NCBI GenBank assembly: GCA_036703275.1
Contig: DATNPK010000069.1
Span: 1-64,000 of the forward strand
DNA from: Coleofasciculaceae cyanobacterium
GTDB lineage: Bacteria; Cyanobacteriota; Cyanobacteriia; Cyanobacteriales; Xenococcaceae
Direction: 5' to 3'
Length of the DNA: 64,000 bases
Shown here: positions 3,723 through 53,178 of the stretch, in pieces
Layout: each line of letters starts with the position of its first letter
Position numbering within the stretch: the stretch's first letter is position 1
Notes under the pieces: model-generated
Database searches by the model: none
What the model was told of the DNA's origin: nothing
What the model saw: the letters and a program-made list of their open reading frames with translations, nothing else
Made by a program: the position numbers and the translations under genes

Positions 3723-4694
3723 CTAACTACCAACAACCGATTCGCCCGCAGCGATTCCCGAAAGTACTGCCCCCTCTATTTTAGGTGCAACAAAGGCATC
3801 CCCCGCCATTATCAGAGGTATTTCAGATACAGCTAAACAGGGTTCACTATAAAAAGTTTTTGGTAGGCTATAGCGCCAACGATGTATTTGATATTTAATG
3901 ACTGGTGAACCTAAGTAATCAGACGCAGCGGTAAATAGTCGATCGGCAATTTCTGCATCATCGCTATCCCAATTAGCATCGCTAAATTTAGGGGTAGCAT
4001 GAAGCGTTACAGCATAACCGTTGGGAGAAATGCCTTTTTGATAATTGTCAGCCAACCAAACTAAAGCTAAATCTTCTAAAGCTACACCTCCTGGTGCAGG
4101 TATCTGGCTGGGTTTTGACAACAAAGCTAAAACCGCAATGCAGCTATAATAACTAACTTGTTTCAAAGACGATCTAATTTTTGTCGGTAGAACTATTTCA
4201 GAAGCATCTAGTAAAGCTAAAGATTGAGGCACGGGAGGAGTCATAACCAAAACATCTCCCTGATACTGTTGCTTGTTTTCTGTTTCTACAAGCCAGCGAT
4301 CGCTATAACTAACTTTCACTACTCTAGTGTTGGTCTGAACATCTAAATTTTGTGCTAAATGTTTAGCAATGCCGCGAGTACCATTTACCCCACAGTAACG
4401 CGGTTGACCATCAACTTCACCAAAACCCTGACACCATTCTTTAACTACGCCCTGCTGCAACCATTCATCTACCCAAGCCTGAAACTGTGGCTGTTTAACG
4501 CTGAAATATTGAGCGCCATAGTCAAACACGCCTTCGATAGATTCTCCCTGTCTGACACGCCGAGTCGCCAAACGTCCGCCGATTCCTCTGCCTTTGTCTA
4601 ATACTGTTACCTTGATTCCGCTGCGTTGTAAAACAGTTGCGGTAATTAATCCAGTAATTCCTCCACCAACAATGATACAAGAGCTAATTTTCAT
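3723..4694 (-). CDS. FAD-dependent amine-oxidase/renalase-like oxidoreductase
   Basis: This 323-residue protein starts with the Rossmann dinucleotide motif VGGGITG (residues 8-14) and DKGRGIGGRLATRR, the early FAD-binding block of renalase-like and NAD(P)-binding amine-oxidase proteins. The C-terminal FAD motif is MAGDAFVAPKIEGAVLSG. Proteins of this type are soluble flavoenzymes oxidising small molecules or dihydronicotinamide isomers; the cyanobacterial members are mostly uncharacterised. It could share a transcript with the downstream P450, but the spacing of about 140 bp makes that uncertain. It is not a carotenoid desaturase, which would be longer. Confidence 0.82.
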   Translation of the reverse strand: MKISSCIIVGGGITGLITATVLQRSGIKVTVLDKGRGIGGRLATRRVRQGESIEGVFDYGAQYFSVKQPQFQAWVDEWLQQGVVKEWCQGFGEVDGQPRYCGVNGTRGIAKHLAQNLDVQTNTRVVKVSYSDRWLVETENKQQYQGDVLVMTPPVPQSLALLDASEIVLPTKIRSSLKQVSYYSCIAVLALLSKPSQIPAPGGVALEDLALVWLADNYQKGISPNGYAVTLHATPKFSDANWDSDDAEIADRLFTAASDYLGSPVIKYQIHRWRYSLPKTFYSEPCLAVSEIPLIMAGDAFVAPKIEGAVLSGIAAGESVVGS

Positions 4695-4944
4695 AAGGCG
4701 ATCTCGCTTGGTGCAACATCAAATTATTTATGCTTTTTATTTAGGTTTTTTAAGTGAGCTAGTTATAACTTTAGTTAGAAAGAGTAAATGGACTGTATAT
4801 CTTTATTTGATTGAGGTTAAAGACCTATTTCAGACGATTTTACTAGAATATGTTGTTTATTATTCAAATAGTTAAAGACCGTTGCCTAAGCATATTTACT
4901 TAGGAGTACCAGCGAGCAAATTATTGAATGTTTTAAATTCGCTC

Positions 4945-5607
4945 ATGTTAGCTATTTTTTGTAATTCAAGCATATTTTTAGGTTCAACCCTACTGTCGTC
5001 CAACTTAATTGTTAATCATGCTTTAGCAGATAATCAATTCGCTCTCAACCAAACTCAAATACCTCATTCCGATTCAGCAAGCCCTAACTATACTAATGAA
5101 TTTATTGAACCAGAGATCTTTATTGCATCCAACATTACTGTTGTTCCTGCAACAATAGATTTAGTTAAATAGTTTGAAGGCTTTAGTGCTAATGCCTATA
5201 TGGATACCAGCGGATTACCAGTTGTTGGCTATGGACAAACTAGAATCAATGGTAAGACCGTCAGCATGGGACAATATATTACTGAGGCGCAGGCTGATGT
5301 CGCATTGAAGCAAGAGCTTAATCGGATTCAACAGTTGGTTCAGTCTTATGTCCAGGTGAAATTGAATCCTCACCAATTAGGAGCATTAACATCGTTAGTC
5401 TACAATTCAGGAATGAGAATATTAACCGATAGTACCTTAATCAGAAAACTTAATGAAGGAGATCATGCAGGCGCAGCAAAAGAGTTTCCACGTTGGAATA
5501 AAGCTAATCAGGGCGGTCAATTAGTTGTGTTTTCTGGTTTGACTAAACGCAGACTTGCAGAGCAACAGCTATTTTTAGCTCCTTATCAGCAGATAGCAAA
5601 TAATTAA
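4945..5607 (+). pseudogene. GH24 phage-type lysozyme interrupted by an in-frame amber codon
   Basis: One reading frame encodes a secreted lysozyme but is broken by TAG at 5170-5172. The first part starts at ATG 4945 (a TTG 63 bases earlier is possible) with a hydrophobic signal peptide ending near NHALA. After the stop, the frame continues with FEGFSANAYMDTSGLP and VVGYGQT, matching the GH24 pattern in which the Glu of FEG is catalytic. The usual residue at the stop is Gln or Glu, each one base from TAG. Reinitiation at ATG 5200 would give a protein lacking the catalytic Glu and the signal peptide. So either the gene is dead or it depends on amber readthrough. The 3' part (NPHQLGALTSLVYNSG) is well preserved, suggesting recent damage. 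Confidence 0.8.
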
Positions 5608-5661: not shown

Positions 5662-6564
5662 ATGGAGCGAAATTCTCAAGTCAAACTGCTCGATTTTAAA
5701 CGGGACAAGGCATCAAATGATTTTGTTCCTAATCCTGCCATTCTTTGCAGCACTCTAGGGGATGGTATTCATCTTGAACTTCATCAACAACCTGAATTTG
5801 AAACTAGCGAACACCAACATATCATGCACGTAATTGCTTGTGGCGTTGGCGATAGATTAGCACCAGGAGAGAGATTTCTCGATGGTAAAGTCCGCTCTGA
5901 AAGACGAGAGCGAGGAGATATTGCGATTATTCCCGCTGGTATTGCTCATCGTTGTAACTGGAAGATCTCAGCCGAGTTTGGTATTTTGGCGATCGATCCT
6001 TCACTGCTGCAACAAGTTGGTCGAGGTTTGGTAGATGGCGATCGCATCGAACTCATTCCCCAGTTTATGAACCAGCAAGATCGACTGATACAAGGAATTT
6101 TTGCCACTTTAAGGGATGAATTAGAGTCAAATCAAATTGCCGGTAGTTTATTGATTGATAGTCTAAAAACTACATTAGCAATTCATTTATTACGCAAATA
6201 TTGCCTTACGAAGCCCAAGCTTTCTAGTTACGGATCTGGCTTAGGTAAATTTAAGTTTAAACAAATAACTGAATATATCAACGAACATCTAGATAGCGAT
6301 CTCAAAGTCATTGAGCTAGCGGCGATCGCCCAAATGAGTCCTTATCACTTTATCCGTTTGTTTAAAAAAGCTTCGGCTCAAACACCACACCAGTATATTT
6401 TGCAGCGTCGAATTGAGAAAGGGAAATATTTATTGCAGCATAGTCAGTTGAGTACTGAAGAAATTGCAGCTAGCTTAAGATTTTGCGATCGCAGTCACTT
6501 TGCTAAATATCTCAAACGTTTTACTGGATTGACACCAAAACAACTTCAAGCTAAATCGCAATAA
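5662..6564 (+). CDS. AraC-family transcription regulator with cupin-like sensor domain
   Basis: A 300-residue regulator. The N-terminal half is a cupin-like sensory domain (TSEHQHIMHVIACGVGD, then RGDIAIIPAGIAHRCNW). The last 100 residues form the AraC double helix-turn-helix: DLKVIELAAIAQMSPYHFIRLFKK, then STEEIAASLRFCDRSHFAKYLKR and FTGLTPKQ. It should bind DNA as a dimer and respond to a small ligand or to stress. It lies 88 bp upstream of, and on the same strand as, the dienelactone-hydrolase gene, which is the most likely target or operon partner. Confidence 0.92.
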   Translation: MERNSQVKLLDFKRDKASNDFVPNPAILCSTLGDGIHLELHQQPEFETSEHQHIMHVIACGVGDRLAPGERFLDGKVRSERRERGDIAIIPAGIAHRCNWKISAEFGILAIDPSLLQQVGRGLVDGDRIELIPQFMNQQDRLIQGIFATLRDELESNQIAGSLLIDSLKTTLAIHLLRKYCLTKPKLSSYGSGLGKFKFKQITEYINEHLDSDLKVIELAAIAQMSPYHFIRLFKKASAQTPHQYILQRRIEKGKYLLQHSQLSTEEIAASLRFCDRSHFAKYLKRFTGLTPKQLQAKSQ

Positions 6565-22014: not shown

Positions 22015-22195
22015 AAAGGAGAAGAATTAATTATTGGGACAGAGGAAAAGTTATTCTCAAATTACCAAATTAGGGGGCGAGCGCCACGTTCGAGTGTTAC
22101 TATAATATTTCATTTTTATCTTTAATTTAATTAAGTTACAAACTATACTACATTAATCAGATTATTACCAGAAACATTTAAATTTAGATACAACT

Positions 22196-23584
22196 GTGAT
22201 GATTAATTTTAATGAAGGTAATCTAACCGCGGAAACTATGATTACAGAACAGTTCGAGGATCTTAATATTTCTACTCCTTCCGAGTTTGGAGTTATGGTA
22301 TTTGATACTAACAATTCTACTGGAGAAGATCTTGACCCCTTGCCAGAAGATACAGATACTTCTGTCGGGGCAACCCAACTTACTAACATAGGCTGGGAGA
22401 GAGATGGTCAACCGCTAGGTACATGGACTAATGACAGTAATGTAGTTCGAGTCTTAGTTTCGGGAATTGAAGTTGCTGATGCCGTAACAGCTAATACTCT
22501 GGGCGGAAATGACCTAATTTATAGTGTAGTTAGTAGCGGGATAGGTTTGCTAAACGATGGCATACTCAACACTGGCAATGGTAACGACTCACTTAAAGGG
22601 AGAGTATTAGGAGATGGAAATGACAATATCGGCATCCTTAATGTTAATGATTTTGAAGGCAGTATCAATACTGGAACAGGTGCCGACCAAATTATTGGTA
22701 CTGTTGAAATCAATGGACGGGGAGACTCCAACACTGGAATCGTTAATGGCCTCATCGGCAATATCGACACGGAGAACAACAATGATCGAATAATCGGTAC
22801 TGTCAAAGTCAAAGGAGACGGAAGTTTTAACATCGGCATCTTCAGTGAAGGGTTAAACTCGATCGATACAGGAAGAGGTAAGGACCAAATTACTGGTATT
22901 GTTGAAATTCAAGGAAATGGAGACTCCAGTACAGGTTTCTTAAATAACAATTTCACTGATACCAATACAGGAAAAGGTGATGACCAAATTACTGGCATTG
23001 TTGAAATCGAAGGAAATGGGAATGATAACAATGGTATTATCAATGGCGAAGCAGGTATTAGCGCAGCAGCTGGCAATGATTATATTTACGGTTCGGTAGT
23101 AGTCGCAAAAGACGGCAGCGGCAACAGTGGCATTTCTAGTGGTATGGGTAGCATCGATATGGGTTCTGGCGATGACTATATTTATGGTGCTGTTGAAGTT
23201 AAAGGAAACGGGGATAACAACTTTGGCATCGATAATACTGCTGCTAACGTCATCCGTATGGGGTCTGGTGACGACAGAATTATTGGAGAAGGAGTAGATG
23301 CTTTTACTGGTTTTGGTGGTTCTGTTAATGGACCTGGCTTTATTAACTTGGACGAAGGCAATGATAAAATCTCTGGGTTTGGTCAGCAAATCGTCGATGG
23401 TGGTACTGGTACAGATCTAGCTGAATTTGAATTTAGCCTAGACGAATCAATAATTTTAGGCAGCAGCGATGCAAGCTCTATTGATATCACCGCAAATGAA
23501 GTAACCATGTCATTTACTAACGTAGAGGAATTTGCATTTGCTAACGGCTCTTTCACCTTCGATGAGTTGATTGCGTCTATTTGA
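22196..23584 (+). CDS. Acidic glycine-rich repeat protein, copy 2, intact frame
   Basis: A 462-residue paralogue of the preceding broken gene. The start INFNEGNLTAETMITEQFE is kept, but about 105-110 residues of the N-terminal domain are deleted, so NSTGEDLD runs straight into LPEDTDTS. It carries seven repeat units of about 33 residues, one more than copy 1, then the shared tail DGGTGTDLAEFEFSLDES and MSFTNVEEFAFANGSFT. The aspartate and glycine pattern suggests calcium binding and a beta-roll fold. No signal peptide is visible, so export by a type I system would be needed. The role is unknown; an extracellular surface or matrix protein is a reasonable guess. Confidence 0.75.
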   Translation: MMINFNEGNLTAETMITEQFEDLNISTPSEFGVMVFDTNNSTGEDLDPLPEDTDTSVGATQLTNIGWERDGQPLGTWTNDSNVVRVLVSGIEVADAVTANTLGGNDLIYSVVSSGIGLLNDGILNTGNGNDSLKGRVLGDGNDNIGILNVNDFEGSINTGTGADQIIGTVEINGRGDSNTGIVNGLIGNIDTENNNDRIIGTVKVKGDGSFNIGIFSEGLNSIDTGRGKDQITGIVEIQGNGDSSTGFLNNNFTDTNTGKGDDQITGIVEIEGNGNDNNGIINGEAGISAAAGNDYIYGSVVVAKDGSGNSGISSGMGSIDMGSGDDYIYGAVEVKGNGDNNFGIDNTAANVIRMGSGDDRIIGEGVDAFTGFGGSVNGPGFINLDEGNDKISGFGQQIVDGGTGTDLAEFEFSLDESIILGSSDASSIDITANEVTMSFTNVEEFAFANGSFTFDELIASI

Positions 23585-43968: not shown

Positions 43969-44117
43969 GCAAAATTAGATTTTAATGTTGAGTTTTGAGC
44001 GCGAGATACACGGAGGAAATCTTCGCTTGTATAATCACGGTGTTGAGTTGGCAAGCTCATTTAAAATAAAAACCGAACAACTTTAAACTGAACATTAATT
44101 AAAGATACTGATTGATT

Positions 44118-45659
44118 ATGGTGCTTTTGTTGAAAACCATCGCCGAATTACGCTCTCAAGCGATATTTCATCGCCATAGTCATCAGGATCGACTTGGTCT
44201 AGTTCCTACGATGGGAGCGTTACATCAGGGGCATTTGAGCTTGATTAAACGAGCGATCGCCGAAAATAAGTTAGTAGTGGTTAGTATTTTTGTTAATCCT
44301 CTACAGTTTGCTCCCACAGAAGATTTAAACAGTTATCCTCGTCAGCTAGAACAAGACCTGAAACAATGTCAAGAGTTAGGCGTTGATTTAGTTTTTGTTC
44401 CTGAAGCTGGAGAAATGAACAGTAGTGGAGATACTCAAGCTTTAACTAGCACTACGGCGATCGTTCCACCCCAAAACATGACTGAGGTACTGTGCGGTAA
44501 ATATCGCCCCGATCACTTTACGGGAGTTGCCACTATTGTTACTAAGCTATTTAATATTATTCAGCCAAATCGAGCTTATTTTGGTCAAAAAGACGCTCAA
44601 CAGCTAGCAATTATCCGCCGTTTAGTTGCTGACTTGAATATCCCCGTAGAGATTGTAGCCTGTCCAATTGTCAGAGAGAAATCAGGACTAGCATTCAGCT
44701 CTCGCAATCAATATTTGACAGCTAGGGAAAAAGAACAGGCTGCTGAGATCTATCGCGCTTTGCAACAGGTAAAATTGGCTTTTACTCAGGGAGAATCTAG
44801 AGCTAGAGCTTTAATTAACTTAGTTAAACAGAAATTAAACCTCGTAGAAGAGGTTAAAATTCAATACGTTGAGTTAGTCGATCCAGTCAGTCTGCAACCA
44901 ATTGAACAAATTAAGCAGACTGGATTACTGGCGATCGCTGTTTATGTCGGTTCTACTCGTTTAATTGATAATATTTTGTTGCAAAAACGTCAGCCTATTG
45001 TTGCCATTGATGGCCCTGCGGGGGCAGGAAAATCCACTGTCACCCGTCGTCTAGCGCATCAGTTAGGCTTACTTTATTTAGATACGGGGGCAATGTATCG
45101 AGCTGTTACTTGGTTAGCGATGGAGTCAGGAATTGCGTTTGATGATCGCGATGCGATCGCCGACTTACTCCAAAATCTTGACTTAAAACTAACTGCCCCG
45201 AATGGTGCAGAATTGCCTACAGTAGTTCAGGTAAATGAGCAAGAAGTAACCAACGCCATTCGTACCCCAGAAGTTACGGCAAACGTCTCGGCGATCGCTG
45301 CTTTGGCTACAGTACGGGAAAAATTAGTTGAAATACAGCAGCAATGGGGCGAACACGGAGGTTTAATTGCCGAAGGTCGAGATATTGGCACCAATGTGTT
45401 TCCTAATGCAGAATTAAAGATTTTTTTGACTGCTTCGGTTCAAGAAAGAGCCAGAAGACGCTGGCAAGATTTCCAAAATCAAGGAGATGATCTTGACTTG
45501 AAACAACTAGAGCAGGACATTCAACAACGAGACGAACAAGATAGCAATAGAGCGATCGCACCTTTGAAAAAAGCCGATGATGCTATTGAATTAATCACTG
45601 ATAATCTTACTATCGACGAAGTAATCGATACAATTATCGATTTGTACCAGCAAATTTAA
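44118..45659 (+). CDS. panC-cmk: Bifunctional pantoate-beta-alanine ligase / cytidylate kinase
   Basis: A natural fusion found in cyanobacteria. Residues 1-285 are PanC, joining pantoate and beta-alanine with ATP; HQGH in PTMGALHQGHLSLIK corresponds to the HIGH motif, and SGLAFSSRNQYL is the conserved loop. From about residue 293 the Cmk domain starts with AIDGPAGAGKSTVTRRLAHQ and LDTGAMYRAV, phosphorylating CMP and dCMP. Both domains look complete. I chose ATG 44118 over a TTG two codons earlier. Confidence 0.96.
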   Translation: MVLLLKTIAELRSQAIFHRHSHQDRLGLVPTMGALHQGHLSLIKRAIAENKLVVVSIFVNPLQFAPTEDLNSYPRQLEQDLKQCQELGVDLVFVPEAGEMNSSGDTQALTSTTAIVPPQNMTEVLCGKYRPDHFTGVATIVTKLFNIIQPNRAYFGQKDAQQLAIIRRLVADLNIPVEIVACPIVREKSGLAFSSRNQYLTAREKEQAAEIYRALQQVKLAFTQGESRARALINLVKQKLNLVEEVKIQYVELVDPVSLQPIEQIKQTGLLAIAVYVGSTRLIDNILLQKRQPIVAIDGPAGAGKSTVTRRLAHQLGLLYLDTGAMYRAVTWLAMESGIAFDDRDAIADLLQNLDLKLTAPNGAELPTVVQVNEQEVTNAIRTPEVTANVSAIAALATVREKLVEIQQQWGEHGGLIAEGRDIGTNVFPNAELKIFLTASVQERARRRWQDFQNQGDDLDLKQLEQDIQQRDEQDSNRAIAPLKKADDAIELITDNLTIDEVIDTIIDLYQQI

Positions 45660-51394: not shown

Positions 51395-51706
51395 TTACTC
51401 GTAATGAAACCTGCAAGCAAGGAAGTCTATTTGATTTTTATTAATCTGATAAATGAATCGGTGTTCCAAATCGATTCTCCTTGACCAAATGTTTGAGTCT
51501 ATGTATTTTAGTGGTTCTGGTTTGCCTATACCTTGAAAAGGATCTTGCATTACCGCTGTCACCATGTCTAAAATCTTGGCAGCTTTTCTTGGTTCTTGCT
51601 TGAACCACCAACCTAAATCTTCCTTAAACTGTGAACTAAAGCCAGGAACGCGATTAACTATCGGCTGTAATGATTCGCTTTTATTCCTCTTGCTCTTTTT
51701 CGCCAT
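51395..51706 (-). CDS. YoeB-family toxin (RelE superfamily mRNA interferase)
   Basis: A toxin of about 103 residues that cuts mRNA on the ribosome. The conserved C-terminal block is WSRRIDLEHRFIYQI followed by LACRFHYE, with the catalytic Arg and His of YoeB; KPEPLKY in the middle is also typical. The N-terminus carries about 20 extra basic residues (KKSKRNKSES) compared with E. coli YoeB. I choose ATG 51706 over a TTG one codon earlier. It overlaps the antitoxin gene by 26 bases, a standard layout for co-regulated pairs. Confidence 0.9.
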   Translation of the reverse strand: MAKKSKRNKSESLQPIVNRVPGFSSQFKEDLGWWFKQEPRKAAKILDMVTAVMQDPFQGIGKPEPLKYIDSNIWSRRIDLEHRFIYQINKNQIDFLACRFHYE

Positions 51707-51986
51707 CAATTCCTAACTCCTGCTTTAATTCTGCTAAAGTCTGAGGCTGGATTTTGCCCGATCTAGATTCAGCGATCGCATTTAATAAACGACTACCATT
51801 TGCAGGAGAACGAAGGAGGTACACGGTTTCTACCAAACTGGTTAAATCTGATTCGGAGATTAAAGCAACATTTTCTCCATCACGACGGTTGACGATAAAT
51901 ACTTGATTATTTTCAGCTACTTCTTCTAGTAGTTTGAAAAAACCATTTCTGGCATCGGTAGGAGTAGTAATTTCATATGAGAACAT
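51681..51986 (-). CDS. YefM/Phd-family antitoxin
   Basis: About 101 residues, starting at the ATG that gives MFSYEITTPTDARNGFFKLL; the frame is open 23 codons further upstream without conserved character. The N-terminal half binds DNA and autorepresses (QVFIVNRRDGENVALISESD is diagnostic of YefM). The C-terminal acidic tail wraps the toxin. The pair is immediately downstream of lptC on the same strand. Confidence 0.9.
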   Translation of the reverse strand: MFSYEITTPTDARNGFFKLLEEVAENNQVFIVNRRDGENVALISESDLTSLVETVYLLRSPANGSRLLNAIAESRSGKIQPQTLAELKQELGIDGEKEQEE

Positions 51987-52044
51987 AGATTGATGTCCGT
52001 ATTTCTGTACATTAAATTTTAGCAACAAAAGCTCTGATGATATA

Positions 52045-53178
52045 TTAATTATCAATTACAGTAGTAACCTGTTGCTTTCCGTCGCTGGTAACTACGATGT
52101 TGTTGTCGCCTAAAGTCCCTACAGCTTTTTCTCCCGTTAAACGAGCTTTGGGATCGGCTTGTTGATAAATTACATCACCTATAGCTTCCACTTCTTCAGT
52201 ATCAATTTTCCAAGTTAATTGACGAGCATATATTTCAGAGGCTTTTTGTTGATTGATTCCCTTGACCCCATCTTGCAATTTAGCTATTTGTTGCTGTAAA
52301 TTTATTTCGCCTTTATTACCTGTCAGGCTAATTTGGCGATCGCGATCTATAATTTGAATTGGTCGATCTGTATTGCCAATACGCTCTTGATAATTCCAGC
52401 TAAGAAAGTCCGTCGCCACCTGTAGCGGAGGATCTAAAGTAATTAACTCAATATTTTTCTGCAAGATCGCCTTATTTTCAGCCAGATTTACCTGAACGCG
52501 ATCGCTGACTAATTTATCTGTAATGGTTTGATTTTCACTGTAGCGGACTAGCTCAACTGCACCAGGACTAGTAATCTCATCTTTGGGTATATTCCATACC
52601 AAGCGATCGCTTTTTAGCTGTAGAGACGGCTGGTTAGTGGTTGCGACTACATTCCCTTGTATTTCTAAACTTTCAACATCAGTATAATATTTTCCCGACT
52701 CAGCGGTAACTTCTAAATTAGGATGAACACCGTTGAGCTTCTCTTTAATTAGCAACAGATTTTCTTGAGGTCGCCATTCTACAGCACTACTATTGATCGT
52801 GCTGCCGTTACGAGGATCGCTAGCGATTATTTGCTTATTTAACAGAATTATGTTGCCGTTATCTTTAATTTCTCCTGTTTCGGCACTAATTTGGAAAATG
52901 ATCGTATTGTCTAGTAACAAATTGCCGACTACATTATTTAAAGTCGCGGTTTTTTTATCTTCGCTATAAATAATCTTATCTGCCTTGATTTTCCAAACAG
53001 TATTTTCTAACTCATTAGACTGCTCTAAAATGGCATTATTTAACTTTAACTGAGTATCTAACCTATTTTCTCCCGAAGCCTGTGACTCGGAGTTGCCAGA
53101 ATTAGGAGTCGATGGCTGACAAGCAACCATACTCACTGTAAGTAATAAAAATAATATATTTAACTGATTTAATCTCAA
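52045..53178 (-). CDS. lptC: LPS export periplasmic protein LptC, long cyanobacterial form
   Basis: A 377-residue protein with a signal/anchor segment (NILFLLLTVSMVAC, lipobox-like Cys20), then a run of beta-strand repeats of the LptC/LptA type: LENTVWKIKADKIIYSEDKK, GNLLLDNTIIFQISAETGEI, NLEVTAESGKYYTDVESLEI and RLTGEKAVGTLGDNN. In the Lpt bridge, LptC receives lipopolysaccharide from LptBFG. The form is about twice the length of the E. coli protein, as is usual in cyanobacteria. No other lpt gene is in the window. Confidence 0.85.
   Translation of the reverse strand: MRLNQLNILFLLLTVSMVACQPSTPNSGNSESQASGENRLDTQLKLNNAILEQSNELENTVWKIKADKIIYSEDKKTATLNNVVGNLLLDNTIIFQISAETGEIKDNGNIILLNKQIIASDPRNGSTINSSAVEWRPQENLLLIKEKLNGVHPNLEVTAESGKYYTDVESLEIQGNVVATTNQPSLQLKSDRLVWNIPKDEITSPGAVELVRYSENQTITDKLVSDRVQVNLAENKAILQKNIELITLDPPLQVATDFLSWNYQERIGNTDRPIQIIDRDRQISLTGNKGEINLQQQIAKLQDGVKGINQQKASEIYARQLTWKIDTEEVEAIGDVIYQQADPKARLTGEKAVGTLGDNNIVVTSDGKQQVTTVIDN

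Follow-up and report, generated by a model that had tools for sequence, protein, structure and literature searches.

Introduction

Lone in-frame stop codons in bacterial genes with a dN/dS below 1 are, in the account given by Belinky et al. (2021; PMC7918605), widespread and short-lived. The gene described here resembles those cases in having a lone nonsense codon in a frame that is still constrained. It differs in that the focus of that account is on stops common to at least two species, whereas this gene carries a second lesion at its start and its stop recurs in none of the copies read. Its family, GH24 (PF00959), includes T4-lysozyme-like endolysins and bacterial autolysins. The T4-lysozyme-like triad Glu-x8-(Asp/Cys)-x5-Thr is described in PMC8228626 as occurring in all published structures of the endolysin family. 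The gene matches the family profile, has Glu and Asp spaced E-x8-D, and is 47 to 51% identical to the 12 best-listed of the 2054 phage records (out of 50,697) that its domain matches. Unlike the described members, the gene and its orthologs have Val in place of the triad Thr, and the gene combines a signal peptide-like N-terminal stretch (judged by eye) with an interrupting TAG.

An in-frame TAG ahead of a conserved GH24 domain

The window is the whole stretch of 64,000 nucleotides that we analyzed, from a draft genome of a Coleofasciculaceae cyanobacterium. Positions 4945 to 5607 translate into 221 positions with one internal stop and a terminal TAA at 5605 to 5607. The internal TAG shares its frame with ATG 4945 and the lysozyme domain at 5173 to 5604 (Table 1). 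As the sequence-only reading had it, the frame is open on either side of the stop, from 4876 to 5169 and again from 5173 to 5604. The Pfam Phage_lysozyme model spans the TAG uninterrupted (5167 to 5562; 134.2 bits; E = 1.3e-38), and this is therefore no chance frame. The part after the TAG scores 132.6 bits by itself (E = 1.3e-38; curated cutoff, 22.3), in agreement with the earlier description of a conserved sequence beyond the stop. The stretch before the TAG (4876 to 5169) is 43% identical to the intact ortholog in genome G012 over 79 amino acids. The codon order at the stop is TAG-Phe-Glu, so the earlier statement that the stop lies two codons before the Glu of FEG holds, whereas the wording "directly before" in its title does not. 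Judged by its sequence, the frame is interrupted relative to intact orthologs and would on that definition count as a pseudogene.

Table 1. Features of the lysozyme locus and its neighbors (window coordinates)
Feature	Position	Strand	Basis or remark
FAD amine oxidase family neighbor, divergent, uninterrupted	3723..4694	-	PF01593; marks the conserved locus
Open part of the frame before the stop	4876..5169	+	Resembles a signal peptide (by eye) followed by a linker; TTG 4924 and ATG 4945 may survive as starts
Remnant of the ancestral start	4928..4936	+	Seven-locus DNA alignment and ATG phase count
In-frame TAG, codon 76 counted from ATG 4945	5170..5172	+	Frame reading, Pfam match, sense codons of relatives
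GH24/Phage_lysozyme domain with its own TAA	5173..5607	+	PF00959 match; 81 and 83% identity to the nearest orthologs
FEG Glu codon, corresponding to T4 lysozyme Glu11	5176..5178	+	Motif E-x8-D; T4 numbering as given in PMC8228626
Asp codon, corresponding to T4 lysozyme Asp20	5203..5205	+	Motif E-x8-D
Val codon where the GH24 triad has Thr (T4 lysozyme Thr26)	5221..5223	+	Motif; aligned PDB relatives
AraC-type regulator, downstream neighbor, uninterrupted	5662..6564	+	PF12833/PF00165

Elsewhere in the window, we noted a 475-amino-acid protein of degenerate repeats with no Pfam match at E = 0.001 (22157 to 23584) and a single gene with pantoate-beta-alanine ligase and cytidylate kinase domains (44112 to 45659). 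Two short overlapping genes on the minus strand (51395 to 52055) resemble a toxin-antitoxin pair of the YefM/YoeB type.

The stop is private to this copy

We searched for the family in 40 genomes, including the window's own, and found matches to the lysozyme domain in 29 of them. The closest relatives over the whole domain were in G004 (83% identical) and G012 (81%). Codons were read at 30 loci, which are part of all matches and include the window's own locus and a paralogue on contig C98 of the same genome. L030 has no alignment at the TAG codon and hence falls outside the count that follows. All 28 other copies readable at this position (27 relatives and the same-genome paralogue) have a sense codon there; in the six closest aligned copies, it encodes Gln (four copies), Glu (one), or Asn (one). 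Programmed readthrough would be expected to leave the stop in place among relatives, and in these 28 sequences it appears nowhere. A recurrent internal stop in relatives was considered and rejected, as the TAA, TAG, and TGA codons flagged in the loci read (L010, L011, L013 to L016, L027, and L029) are the genes' own terminal stops, reached by alignment overrun; flags in two further copies, G024:C238 and G022:C196, lie outside this set.

The amine oxidase gene adjoins the lysozyme gene in G012, G011, and G001 (71 to 84% identical), three of the four related loci examined, and was not seen in the stretch from the fourth, G004. The common neighbor therefore identifies the window gene as an ortholog at a conserved place. 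In G004, two copies of this GH24 gene type lie side by side (L005 and L032; G004:C123:42428-43956), and their identities to the window domain are 83 and 72%.

A phage origin of the gene is disfavored, because the copies closest to it (81 and 83%) are in cyanobacterial genomes. The domain also matches six viral contigs, at 41 to 46% identity. The neighbors submitted to Pfam (P450, amine oxidase, and AraC-type regulator) are nonphage genes, and a plasmid collection contained no DNA match.

A second lesion at the start

In an alignment of the upstream DNA of seven loci, including the window's, ATG 4928 aligns with the start ATG of all six close orthologs. After this ATG, 5 nucleotides rather than 6 lead up to the next aligned codon, and it now reads ATG TTT TAA, with a stop as its third codon. 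A count of ATG phases agrees: relative to the FEG codon, the aligned start is in phase 0 in six of six orthologs and in phase 2 in the window. The ortholog L004 has an in-frame stop just 5' of the aligned ATG, which supports this ATG as the true start. The sequence-only reading had overlooked the start lesion. Its presence counts against schemes that treat the TAG as the sole obstacle to expression. By itself, this lesion need not kill the gene, because TTG 4924 and ATG 4945 are still left in frame. Judging from the sequence, entry at either of them could alter the start of the signal peptide, itself assigned by eye.

We consider the gene very probably a young pseudogene, the remains of a dispensable copy encoding a probably secreted GH24-family (Phage_lysozyme) protein. 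The damage would consist of a one-nucleotide loss immediately 3' of the ancestral start codon and, separately, a nonsense change that produced the TAG two codons ahead of the Glu of FEG. Translation begun in frame would end past the signal peptide-like stretch and the linker, and no product bearing the Glu would be expected. With an intact GH24 paralogue of another clade remaining in the genome, the loss would presumably be tolerated since this lysozyme copy is not needed. Both lesions are probably real in the organism, and probably no functional protein is made. A counterpoint to the pseudogene is that decay is hardly visible: nothing interrupts the frame beyond the TAG, and the residues of the domain are well preserved.

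Past constraint and dispensability

We fitted our own codon model to 11 sequences and 134 codons, comparing one ratio with a separate ratio on one branch. Omega was 0.186 on the window branch and 0.083 elsewhere, a nonsignificant rise (P = 0.058), and an omega of 1 over the whole window branch was rejected (P = 0.00095). The branch of the intact sister L004 had a similar omega (0.190), and the raised value on the window branch is therefore by itself no evidence of decay; pairwise dN/dS between the window gene and L004 was 0.153. The rejection of omega 1 over the whole branch implies that the damage is recent: purifying selection acted on the gene for most of the time since its split from L004.

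Of the 13 genomes of the genus, 8 (the window's own included) yielded the window's gene type; in the other five, only more distant GH24 matches were found. Gene types were assigned by identity, with the tree as a second basis for those copies that it includes. The intact paralogue in the same genome (L002/L155; G000:C98:100394-100801) has the same domain, the E-x8-D-x5-V motif, and a signal-like N terminus (by eye). It differs from the window gene in being intact and in its placement in another clade, together with second copies from G012 (G012:C11), G001 (G001:C2), and others. The private stop, second lesion, intact paralogue, patchy presence in the genus, and long constraint all support the earlier suggestion of a very young pseudogene.

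The constraint on the domain also bears on a different possibility: the TAG could be of recent origin, perhaps still polymorphic, and lower expression, with a little full-length protein made by ordinary misreading from ATG 4945 or TTG 4924. Such a state would fit with the widespread, short-lived in-frame stops with a dN/dS below 1 described in PMC7918605, and the window domain is still constrained. It leaves the damaged ancestral start unexplained, though, and all 28 other copies read lack the stop. The intact paralogue would also make dosage tuning by the window copy less needed, and we regard low-level readthrough as very unlikely. We rate as extremely unlikely that the amber codon is a kept functional off-switch, with full-length protein made from the new start only when amber misreading rises. 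If it were, the cell would be shielded from its own wall-cutting enzyme.

Decoding of TAG and further interrupted genes of the genome

The sequence-only reading had also proposed that expression depends on readthrough or suppression and had suggested a search for an amber suppressor tRNA. Of 417 first-look candidates, 150 were scored with the Rfam tRNA model, which gave 38 places; ARAGORN named 37 of them, none with the anticodon CUA, and the last reads CAT by eye. This last place (L073; G000:C89:192087-192157) is tRNA-like, with 42.5 bits, above the Rfam cutoff, and has no ARAGORN call. A pattern for CUA loops occurred at 42 places, compared with 71 in a backward control. ARAGORN, run on 40 of the 42, returned only tRNA-Leu(CAG) and no CUA tRNA; the other two are the tRNA-Arg of L052 and one place on C112, outside the ARAGORN set. 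The anticodons CCT and CGT were absent among the tRNAs found, and the tRNA list may therefore be incomplete. RF1 is present in the genome (522 bits), whereas PylS was not found in it, and TAG ends 12 of the 41 open frames of at least 200 codons in the window. Within the scope of these searches, neither an amber-reading tRNA nor a pyrrolysine system was found.

Reading of the TAG as an amino acid, whether genome-wide or in the lysozyme gene only, would account for the open frame after the stop, and a suppressor could have escaped an incomplete tRNA list. Against this stand the anticodons, the CUA-loop counts, the release factor, the lack of a PylS match, and the regular use of TAG as a terminator, and we give amber suppression practically no credence. 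Together with the lack of conservation of the stop and the presence of all three stop codons in broken genes of this genome (see below), these results speak against dependence on readthrough or suppression in general.

We also looked for interruptions in other gene families of the genome. Among 115 matches to the response-regulator domain, 5 had a flagged stop, 4 of them clearly internal (two TAA and two TAG) and the fifth at residue 104 of 107, possibly a true end. In the control genome, G012, none of 107 matches was flagged (4 versus 0; P = 0.12 by Fisher's test), and a three-genome comparison showed no flagged stop among the response-regulator matches listed. As this excess is not significant, we make no claim that broken genes or assembly errors are unusually frequent in this genome. 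Among ABC domains (95 matches, with 150 of 193 first-look candidates scored), 2 were flagged, one with an internal TGA and the other belonging to one of three frame-split genes. The genes with a single internal stop are L143 (G000:C57), L145 (C98), L146 (C28), L147 (C76), and L148 (C82), that is, the four response-regulator domains and one ABC domain. The ABC-transporter domains L140 (G000:C60), L141 (C28), and L142 (C20) are split between two frames, as after a small indel. Since the broken genes carry TAA, TAG, and TGA, breakage in this genome is no amber matter.

These genes with single lesions raise the possibility that the organism's lysozyme gene is intact and that the draft is wrong at the TAG, at the missing nucleotide, or at both. 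The assembly consists of 116 contigs, the missing nucleotide sits in an A/T-rich stretch beside a T run, and the fully open frame after the TAG would also be expected. Such an explanation requires two separate errors of different kinds in one gene, although no interruption is seen in the neighboring P450, amine oxidase, and AraC-type regulator genes or in secA, which is longer. An error rate that produced lone stops in two families would, by our reasoning rather than by computation, far exceed that of usual assemblies. Assembly or sequencing error is thus unlikely, and a young pseudogene is the reading we prefer.

A GH24-type group without the catalytic Thr

The sequence-only reading had called the product a GH24 lysozyme and the Glu after the TAG catalytic. 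The family assignment and the presence of Glu and Asp stand; the triad Thr does not, being Val in the window gene and its orthologs, so that the full motif Glu-x8-(Asp/Cys)-x5-Thr is not found in the window gene. Three PDB relatives shown aligned have Thr at this place. Over 42 loci (each counted once, the window's own included), the residue was Val in 31, Ile in 2, and Thr in 5 (L028, L029, L031, L065, and L094), and the pattern did not fit in 4. Val or Ile with Glu and Asp kept was observed in the window gene, L002, L004 to L027, L032, L089, L091 to L093, L096, and L099. The Val/Ile copies placed in the tree form one group (local support, 0.88) that holds both the window gene and the paralogue. 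The six relatives on viral contigs include four with Thr at the same spacing (by eye) and two, L153 and L154, with an insertion before the Thr. To judge from these residues, the Val/Ile proteins may use a variant mechanism or may have a noncatalytic role.

The broken lysozyme gene is in itself an ordinary finding, one freshly broken gene copy among others in the genome. Where a lone stop interrupts a conserved frame, the start codon is worth checking, as a second lesion there can help to decide between readings. Should the proteins of the cyanobacterial GH24-type clade without the catalytic Thr turn out to be active, that observation would be of greater weight.
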